Source: Lacunisphaera sp. (lineage in GTDB: Bacteria; Verrucomicrobiota; Verrucomicrobiia; Opitutales; Opitutaceae). From it: 64,000 bases of DNA. Positions 48,174-49,700 of the stretch are shown in pieces. The stretch's first letter is position 1; each line of letters opens with the position of its first letter. Location of the stretch: the NCBI GenBank assembly GCA_029945445.1, contig JAQSCO010000045.1, positions 115,092 to 179,091 of the forward strand, written 5' to 3'. A program made the position numbers and the translations under genes. The notes beneath the pieces are model-generated. The model saw only the letters and a program-made list of their open reading frames with translations. It was not told where the DNA came from and ran no database searches.

Positions 48174-48251
48174 AAAAGCGCCTCATGTCGCCACGGTGCG
48201 CTTCGGGGAAATTGGCCGCGCCATTCGTAGCCTTACTCGCTGCCGCTAAAG

Positions 48252-48312
48252 GGTCCTCCGTCGCTAAAGCTTTGGAGGACCATTCTTCGCTCCGTATTAC
48301 TACGGCGAAGAA
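48252..48312. repeat. Two hairpins at the 3' end of tRNA-Pro, family H
   Basis: GGTCCTCC/GGAGGACC (48252-48281) and ATTCTTCGC..CGTA / TACG..GCGAAGAAT (48282-48313). The second hairpin's CTTCGC arm begins one base from the encoded CCA of tRNA-Pro. Related hairpins abut tRNA-Arg and tRNA-Ala. Confidence 0.7.
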
Positions 48313-48389
<77 letters not shown>

Positions 48390-49137: not shown

Positions 49138-49214
49138 GTCCTCGTAGCTCAGCTGGATAGAGCACCGGTTTTCTAAACCGGTCGTCGCGTGTTCGAGTCA
49201 CGCCGGGGACGCCA
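49138..49214 (+). tRNA. tRNA-Arg (TCT)
   Basis: 77 nt with acceptor GTCCTCG/CGGGGAC (one G-T pair), anticodon stem CCGGT/ACCGG, loop TTTCTAA (anticodon TCT), T arm GCGTG-TTCGAGT-CACGC, discriminator G and encoded CCA at 49212-49214. Confidence 0.96.
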
Positions 49215-49624
49215 TCCTTCGCTCCTGCGGAGCTTCGGCTCGGCAAGCCATCTTCGGCAAAGTGCCCCTTTACAGTCGTTTTTTGCTGAACGCCCGGCCC
49301 GAAGCGGATTTCAGGTATTTCTCGAATGCCGCAGCCTTGCCGCGGTTTCGGAAAGCGACAGCCGTCTTGATCCGCCACGGTCTCAGCTTGCCTGTGTGGG
49401 GAACGCCTCCGCTATTATGCTTGGCGAGTCGGTTGGCCAGATTGTCGGTCAGGCCGGCATAATATCCTCCCTCAGGCGCAAGGGACTCCAAGATGTAGAC
49501 GTAGGCGAATTCCTTCATGTAATTCGGCCCGTTGTATCCCCAATCGCCCGCCTACGCCCTGCGGGCTACGGCGCGGCAGCCTTCGCTGGCTTGCCGAGCC
49601 GTAGCTCGTCAATCGAGCGAAGGC
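49215..49624. mobile_element. GIY-YIG unit bounded by inverted repeats, docked between two tRNA CCA ends
   Basis: Left repeat 49216-49250 and right repeat 49587-49623 share CCTTCGCTC, AGCT and CGGCTCGGCAAGCCA in inverse orientation, with a 6-8 base variable insert. Each outer end is one base from the encoded CCA of a tRNA (Arg at left, Ala at right). The right repeat also folds on itself (AGCCTTCGCT/AGCGAAGGCT). The GIY-YIG gene lies inside, reading leftward. No direct target duplication is visible. Confidence 0.6.
49270..49518 (-). CDS. Small GIY-YIG endonuclease-domain protein
   Basis: An 82-residue protein that is nothing but a GIY-YIG domain. Motifs: AYVYILESL and GYYAGLTDNLANRLAKHNSG, where the second Tyr, Gly and Arg line up with the GIY-YIG active site, then PHTGKLRPWRIKTAVAFRNR and EKYLKSASGRAFSKKRL with the late Glu. 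It is like the short UPF0213/YhbQ group. The role of this subgroup is unsettled: repair, recombination or selfish DNA. Its place within inverted repeats between two tRNA 3' ends suggests mobility. The protein seems intact, with all catalytic residues. Confidence 0.88.
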   Translation of the reverse strand: MKEFAYVYILESLAPEGGYYAGLTDNLANRLAKHNSGGVPHTGKLRPWRIKTAVAFRNRGKAAAFEKYLKSASGRAFSKKRL

Positions 49625-49700
49625 TGGTGGAGCAGATCGGGATCAAACCGACGACCTCGTCGTTGCGAACGACGCGCTCTATCAACTGAGCTACTGCCCC
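49625..49700 (-). tRNA. tRNA-Ala (CGC)
   Basis: 76 nt on the reverse strand, acceptor GGGGCAG/CTGCTCC with one G-T pair, anticodon stem CGTCG/CGACG, loop TTCGCAA (anticodon CGC), discriminator A and encoded CCA. Confidence 0.95.

Follow-up and report, generated by a model that had tools for sequence, protein, structure and literature searches.

Palindromic elements with and without a minimal GIY-YIG nuclease gene at the 3′ CCA ends of bacterial tRNA and tmRNA genes: a probable family of mobile elements

Introduction

Slx1, acting with Slx4, is a structure-specific GIY-YIG nuclease that cuts branched DNA. It is the nearest solved fold to the small protein described here, but it is a eukaryotic repair enzyme with an extra domain and a partner, and it is not mobile. 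Stand-alone GIY-YIG proteins of the UPF0213/YhbQ type belong to the same size class, and we know of no link between the solved proteins of this type and tRNA. A nuclease of the same single-domain class beside tRNA genes is found among the free-standing GIY-YIG homing endonucleases of T-even phages, such as SegB, which prefers the motif RAWTSGAAC and cuts inside tRNA genes (PMC13096335); in our own reading, this motif would be the reverse complement of the T-loop. SegB is phage-borne, and the parts of its description at hand (PMC13096335) mention neither palindromes at CCA ends nor nuclease-less derivatives, whereas the elements reported here have both.

REP/REPIN sequences and their RAYT proteins are alike in having paired short hairpins, nuclease-bearing and nuclease-less units and few gene copies per genome. 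However, RAYT is a Y1/HUH enzyme, and REPs carry a GTAG tag and occupy many intergenic places, according to the sections of the literature at hand (PMC3733652, PMC8266576), whereas the gene here is of the GIY-YIG type and the location is the tRNA 3′ end. Islands and phages with tyrosine integrases use the same target region, but the present elements are far smaller, and no integrase gene was found inside the 100–410 bp units. In the open-licence papers searched, preprints and subscription papers being outside the search, GIY-YIG genes or mobile palindromes at bacterial tRNA 3′ ends were not described.

Results

Three separate elements in one window

The window, i.e. the whole 64,000-nucleotide stretch of a Lacunisphaera sp. 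contig analyzed here, contains two convergent tRNAs, tRNA-Arg and tRNA-Ala, whose 3′ ends face each other and are each followed directly after the CCA by the same hairpin motif (Table 1). Hereafter G000 denotes the source genome, other G numbers the compared genomes, L numbers loci and C numbers contigs; hairpins 1, 2 and 3 are names coined in this analysis. The initial annotation had placed the two CCA ends at 49214 and 49625, which ARAGORN and the sequence confirmed. It had also proposed repeats starting one base inside each CCA with an unequal insert, which we found as CTGCG versus GATTGAC between CCTTCGCTC and GAGCT, and a stand-alone GIY-YIG gene between the repeats, which proved correct since the 82-residue open reading frame matches the GIY-YIG family in Pfam (PF01541, E = 6.3e-12, 46.1 bits against a cut-off of 22.6). 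The inverted arms were 95% complementary over 21 nt (49230–49250 and 49587–49607) and 92% complementary over 13 nt (49212–49224 and 49615–49627), the latter pair including CCA. Hairpins 1 and 2 at tRNA-Ala formed one covariance-model match (49547–49624, minus strand, E = 5.8e-12), and the element at tRNA-Pro gave another (48250–48312, E = 1.4e-15). Each element in the window starts directly after the tRNA CCA, and its stem usually includes the 'CA' of CCA. The 36-nt element at tRNA-Arg is probably a decayed remnant.

Table 1. Features of the tRNA-Pro, tRNA-Arg and tRNA-Ala loci in the window
Feature	Position	Strand	Remarks
Hairpin 3 of tRNA-Pro element	48213–48232	−	ends GGCCA
Hairpin 2 of tRNA-Pro element	48253–48280	−	
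Hairpin 1 of tRNA-Pro element	arms 48306–48315 (with CCA) and 48280–48289	−	
Non-autonomous element at tRNA-Pro, 100 nt, without gene	48213–48312	−	absent from orthologous tRNA in G071 and G113
tRNA-Pro(ggg)	48313–48389	−	ARAGORN
tRNA-Arg(tct)	49138–49214	+	ARAGORN
Short element, 36 nt, directly 3′ of tRNA-Arg CCA	49215–49250	+	own end is GCCA
GIY-YIG nuclease gene	49270–49518	−	82 aa, catalytic domain alone; sole copy found in source genome
Hairpin 2 of tRNA-Ala element	49546–49574	−	folding, sequence
Hairpin 1 of tRNA-Ala element	49577–49626	−	arms 49616–49626 and 49577–49587; outer pairs from CA of tRNA CCA
Motif GAGCTACGGCTCGGCAAGCCA, hairpin-3-like, within hairpin 1 loop at tRNA-Ala	49587–49607	−	
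tRNA-Ala(cgc)	49625–49700	−	ARAGORN; 3′ CCA 49625–49627 is left edge of nuclease-bearing element

The initial annotation had read the space between the two CCA ends as one 408-bp unit fitting exactly between two tRNAs. This is the arrangement of one genome, the source genome, and it is not preserved in two relatives: in G113, of the same genus, the gene lies at tRNA-Ala and an element-free tRNA-Arg follows about 610 bp further, and in G037 tRNA-Arg is reversed and without an element. In the window, each of the tRNAs has an element of its own. One-sided units are moreover the rule across loci, and we regard a unit bounded by two tRNAs as hardly credible. What stands of the mobile unit proposed there is the lodging at tRNA 3′ ends together with a stand-alone GIY-YIG gene and palindromes. 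The window holds two separate elements on two convergent tRNAs and a third one at the nearby tRNA-Pro.

The tRNA at 49138–49214 of the window and that of L058 are the same tRNA reversed relative to its neighbours between related genomes, and the Val-gac tRNA of G064 and G145 is likewise reversed compared to that of G020. Perhaps such tRNAs were turned around through recombination between inverted hairpins.

Exact position, gain and loss

In the source genome, 44 tRNA matches and one copy of the GIY-YIG gene were found, and nine tRNAs bore the hairpin as judged by eye (Pro-ggg, Arg-tct, Ala-cgc, Lys-ttt, Gly-tcc, Cys-gca, Arg-cct, Leu-gag and Ser-cga). Two patterns derived from the motif matched five different places in the 4.17 Mb, and all five matches started one base after a tRNA CCA, indicating that the placement of the motif is not due to chance. 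In five genomes of the genus, we inspected the sequences on the 3′ side of 153 tRNAs (near-complete for G000, G071 and G113); a strict stem test was passed by 31 of 146 tRNAs versus 20/580 and 16/528 control positions, and under a looser test 10 of 145 displaced control positions also had a hairpin. Contigs C12, C14 and C45 of G000 and contig C25 of G130 end exactly at a tRNA CCA, and C51 of G000 ends one base short of it; such ends would be expected if flanks after CCA were mixed within the population sampled, or if the hairpins interrupted the assembly.

Comparison of orthologous tRNAs, always between species and not strains, revealed filled and empty sites, and exact boundaries were obtained from two orthologous loci. 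At Val-gac, the filled G071 has 98 nt inserted exactly after the CCA compared to the empty G037, and at Pro-ggg, the filled G000 has 100 nt after the CCA compared to the empty G071 and G113; both inserts end with GGCCA, leaving CCA on both sides. At Lys-ttt, with the same downstream gene, the site is filled in G071 and G000 and empty in G037, G130 and G113. The gene itself varies as well: at Leu-gag it is present in G037, G071, G113, G130 and G093 and absent from G000, where the hairpins are kept and the downstream flank is common to four of the gene-bearing genomes, not G071. In another genus, Val-gac of G020 has the gene and that of G090 has neither gene nor hairpin, the downstream gene being the same. 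No exact empty site for a nuclease-bearing copy was found at the loci compared, and the flanks of Phe-gaa, Gly-tcc and Cys-gca could not be aligned between genomes. A supposed empty site at tRNA-Val(cac), G000 versus G130, was rejected (shared flank of at most 25 bp).

At tRNA-Ala(ggc) of Bradyrhizobium and Rhodopseudomonas, 11 of 11 sites were filled, a pattern of prolonged vertical inheritance and not of hopping. The stop codon lies at most 2 bases from the conserved flank in 6 of 9 such sites, which gives the right edge of the long, nuclease-bearing form. In six comparisons of Bradyrhizobium with L359, the element was 75–80% and the flank 88–94% identical, whereas in L365 (Bradyrhizobium AS23.2) gene and flank align together at 86%; at the tRNA-Ala of the latter locus, the hairpin region is long and doubled.

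Nuclease genes behind tRNAs of many isotypes

Within the same family, 89 of 200 genomes contained a match to the gene. Scanning named genomes yielded 74 loci, a set skewed toward close relatives, including Bradyrhizobium, Rhizobium, Phenylobacterium, Terriglobia, Kuenenia and Patescibacteria; going by the record names, relatives occur in Verrucomicrobiota, Pseudomonadota, Acidobacteriota, Planctomycetota and Patescibacteria. A tRNA was located within 500 bp in 83 of the first 103 loci, and a tRNA was present in 41 of 60 weaker loci, which were hand-picked from a longer list and not random. After removal of three duplicates, 160 distinct loci remained, in 118 of which a tRNA lies upstream and faces the gene at a median distance of 152 bp, with 17 isotypes represented. 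At the others, the gene lies behind tmRNA (11 loci) or behind T-arm fragments ending in CCA (4 loci), has only a downstream tRNA that faces it (1 locus) or a tRNA in another orientation (4 loci), is at a contig edge (4 loci) or has no tRNA-like end by script (18 loci); 2 of these 18 yield a tRNA fragment under a looser rule, for which the control rate was 3/311 windows. Fragments were called by script for this count, its looser re-run and the second-type repeats described below, and by eye elsewhere. HNH control genes of the same family were near a tRNA in 0 of 30 cases. Stems in which 8 or more of 9 positions pair, starting at the CA of CCA, were present at 88 of 114 loci behind a CCA-ended tRNA.

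This distribution bears on the idea that the gene is a plain free-standing homing endonuclease, which cuts the tRNA T-arm and spreads into the same tRNA of other strains only, the hairpins being debris or regulators. T6 SegB, a GIY-YIG homing endonuclease cutting within tRNA genes, offers a precedent (PMC13096335, from the parts at hand), and in Bradyrhizobium SSUT77 the tRNA-Ala(ggc) bears a different element lineage in place of the usual one, next to a flank of 90.7% identity. However, the genes are spread over 17 tRNA isotypes and tmRNA rather than confined to one cognate site, close relatives sit at different tRNAs (e.g. the Val-cac copy of G130 groups among Ala-cgc copies), and nuclease-less units occur at many tRNAs. 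Since the flank differs from tRNA to tRNA, the cut site must moreover be in the tRNA, which the insert leaves whole. We consider plain homing improbable. On the protein tree the tRNA label changes 56 times over 115 tips (shuffled mean 83, minimum 77), with 35 of 140 inner branches firmly supported; the history of tRNA hosts is one of long stays with many jumps.

No relative was found in 72,556 plasmid records or in 50,697 phage records, and viral contigs gave no match to the motif and 46 stretches fitting the pattern, none of them a relative. PADLOC matched 0 defence-system families, NCBIfam gave no family either, and in the scanned stretches Rfam recognized nothing other than tRNA and tmRNA.

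A second type of locus was also observed, in which a gene of a different GIY-YIG clade is flanked by a full tRNA on one side and a direct repeat of the tRNA 3′ part on the other (T-arm and acceptor, 18–92 nt), namely L216, L213, L211 and L215 (tRNA-Met), L157 (tRNA-Leu) and L153 (tRNA-Trp). The repeat is identical over 70 nt in L216 and 99% identical over 92 nt in L157; it is short in L217 and L155, and L214 has none. In build, this type resembles a homing unit equipped with a spare 3′ half of the tRNA. As to a downstream copy of the tRNA 3′ end serving as att site, the 81 loci examined showed it clearly in L157 and L153 and partly in L155 (Bacteroidota-like), and it was absent in the main type, for which the att explanation was discarded; the other matches were other full tRNAs (L125, L148) or an 18-nt match (L083).

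Hairpin units without the gene

A covariance model, R1, was built from 12 short elements with tRNA and CCA excluded. Over five whole genomes it gave 32 matches at E ≤ 1e-6, of which 25 were located at tRNA/tmRNA ends, 12 of these being training rows, 4 at tRNA fragments that include the T-arm, 2 at short CACCA ends and 1 elsewhere (L340); four or five of the 25 sit 17–66 nt inside a longer element. The 20 non-training matches were distributed as 13, 4, 2 and 1 over the same classes. Of the 32 strong matches, 29 thus place hairpin 1 + 2 units at tRNA-like ends, and 31 do so if short CACCA ends are counted. Placement at random with respect to tRNAs, which had been named as evidence against the initial annotation, was not what we saw, as model matches concentrate at tRNA-like ends; nor were empty sites missing, as described above for orthologous tRNAs. 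In the family, R1 matched at E ≤ 1e-4 in 59 of 120 genomes, and of 26 further loci (25 from other genera) 19 were at tRNA/tmRNA ends, 6 of the other 7 follow CCA and L440 does not. Weaker or unchecked places were away from tRNA in 17 of 20 cases, many with hairpin 2 alone, showing that hairpin 2 has dispersed relatives. Single hairpins like CCCTCCGAAGCCTTGGCGAAGGAGGGC were also scattered off tRNAs (L343, L349, L350, L354 and similar), some seemingly within genes, and constitute a REP-like repeat related to hairpin 2.

The possibility that another enzyme moves the hairpins, e.g. a Y1/HUH transposase (RAYT/TnpA_REP), with the GIY-YIG gene as a mere passenger or as an independent homing gene, was weighed against these data. 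Y1_Tnp matches were present in 5 of 5 genomes searched, the two- or three-hairpin build resembles REPINs, adjacent hairpin pairs exist as non-autonomous units (fold z of −2.6 to −5.4 in five examples) and hairpin-2-like units are dispersed. However, hairpin 1 + 2 units were not dispersed through intergenic space in the five genomes as REPINs are, and their partner is a GIY-YIG gene rather than a Y1/HUH gene: in 10 Y1_Tnp loci, the Y1 genes had no flanking hairpins, R1 gave one weak match (L394, E = 2.7e-4) and no other at E ≤ 0.01, and ARAGORN detected no tRNA. The tRNA position is shared with GIY-YIG genes, not with Y1 genes, and we judge movement by a Y1 enzyme unlikely.

Tandem units were seen in L190 and L238 (G113 Val-cac), where the terminal-hairpin CCA of one unit replaces the tRNA CCA for the next. 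In L320 and L326, the hairpin stands behind a 3′ half of tRNA-Leu(caa) that has no 5′ half, as would result from an island inserting into the tRNA and displacing its old end; islands appear to split some element-bearing tRNAs, the Leu-caa fragment of L320 being an example.

Pairing in the stems

The three nucleotides that follow CCA vary between elements, and in 86 of 96 stems they are exactly matched by the facing arm, compared with a mean of 40 and a maximum of 51 over 2000 permutations. Alignment A1 contains 21 two-sided changes in 12 rows, a value reached by 0 of 500 shuffles; these stem-pairing counts are inflated by shared descent of related rows. In an RNA helix, G-U pairs would be favoured. 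The 126 stems contained 68 mismatches, of which 8 were G-T and 11 A-C, and this lack of a G-T excess, unlike an RNA helix, points to stems acting as DNA, as far as mismatch symmetry can tell; selection on the stems at the RNA level was rejected for the same reason. Intrinsic terminators were rejected as well, the hairpins at occupied tRNAs being without a T-run by eye. Hairpin 3 matched the bases after CCA exactly in 10 of 20 cases (permuted mean 3.6, maximum 9), these cases being few and motif-biased; that hairpin 3 serves as a guide for those bases is only an idea.

The hairpins might otherwise serve the host as signals in tRNA 3′ maturation or in termination, with the nuclease as a host enzyme. 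They are always 3′ of tRNAs and on the same strand, and a palindrome 10 bp after tRNA genes of Methanopyrus kandleri has been so interpreted (PMC5217627, in the portion at hand). But occupancy varies between orthologous tRNAs, tRNAs lacking an element are often followed by a conventional T-rich terminator instead (as judged by eye), defunct tRNA fragments bear elements as well, and the mismatches described above do not resemble those of an RNA helix. A host signal seems very improbable.

The GIY-YIG protein

Judging from substitution rates, the protein is under purifying selection (dN/dS 0.00–0.21 in 39 of 51 pairs; undefined by saturation in 12). V7, Y8, G22, R30, H34 and E66 are invariant among 16 proteins and Y20 nearly so; we take the conserved Tyr, Arg, His and Glu to be the GIY-YIG active-site residues. 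The AlphaFold2 model (mean pLDDT 90) is predicted to fold like Slx1, which Foldseek ranked first (6seh, E = 5.1e-4, TM 0.73 on the query, 34% identity). The best sequence match among solved structures was 1zg2, of the UPF0213/YhbQ type (E = 1.5e-5).

Discussion

We consider it likely that these are mobile palindromic elements specific for tRNA/tmRNA 3′ CCA ends, which occur in nuclease-bearing and nuclease-less forms and would be moved by the GIY-YIG nuclease. The long form consists of CCA, hairpin 1, hairpin 2, in some cases hairpin 3, and a minimal Slx1-like GIY-YIG gene, with its right edge in Bradyrhizobium at the stop codon or close to it. Hairpins 1, 2 and 3 with a GGCCA end make up the short form (98–100 nt, two cases). 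The nuclease may recognize the tRNA 3′ end (T-arm and acceptor strand, as SegB seems to), a CCA-containing DNA hairpin, or both. The model joins two lines of argument: the elements follow every gene type with a T-arm and CCA, even bare fragments, and SegB aims at tRNA genes; and branched DNA is what Slx1 cuts, the element for its part offering a DNA hairpin with CCA in it. We infer a putative cut at CCA, after which host repair or replication would copy the element into the opened CCA junction, and nuclease-less hairpin units would be moved in trans. The single GIY-YIG gene of the source genome, set against nine hairpin-bearing tRNAs, counts against this explanation.

A further-reaching proposal, to which we give somewhat less than an even chance, is that the elements represent a new class of hairpin transposon, whose sole protein is a minimal Slx1-like nuclease and whose universal CCA target is built into the terminal hairpin, each insertion restoring the CCA junction for the next. 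The target would be chosen through base pairing of the element with the CCA of the tRNA, much as it is by the guide bases of IS200/IS605.

If this is true, a mobile element present in several phyla would have found a new solution to safe landing, directly after the last base of a tRNA, where insertion is harmless and a target is always present, and GIY-YIG nucleases could serve as sole engines of transposition. Hundreds of short genes annotated only by their domain would then be explained, as would the breaking of some assemblies at tRNA ends, and the elements would offer a very short, site-specific system for study.
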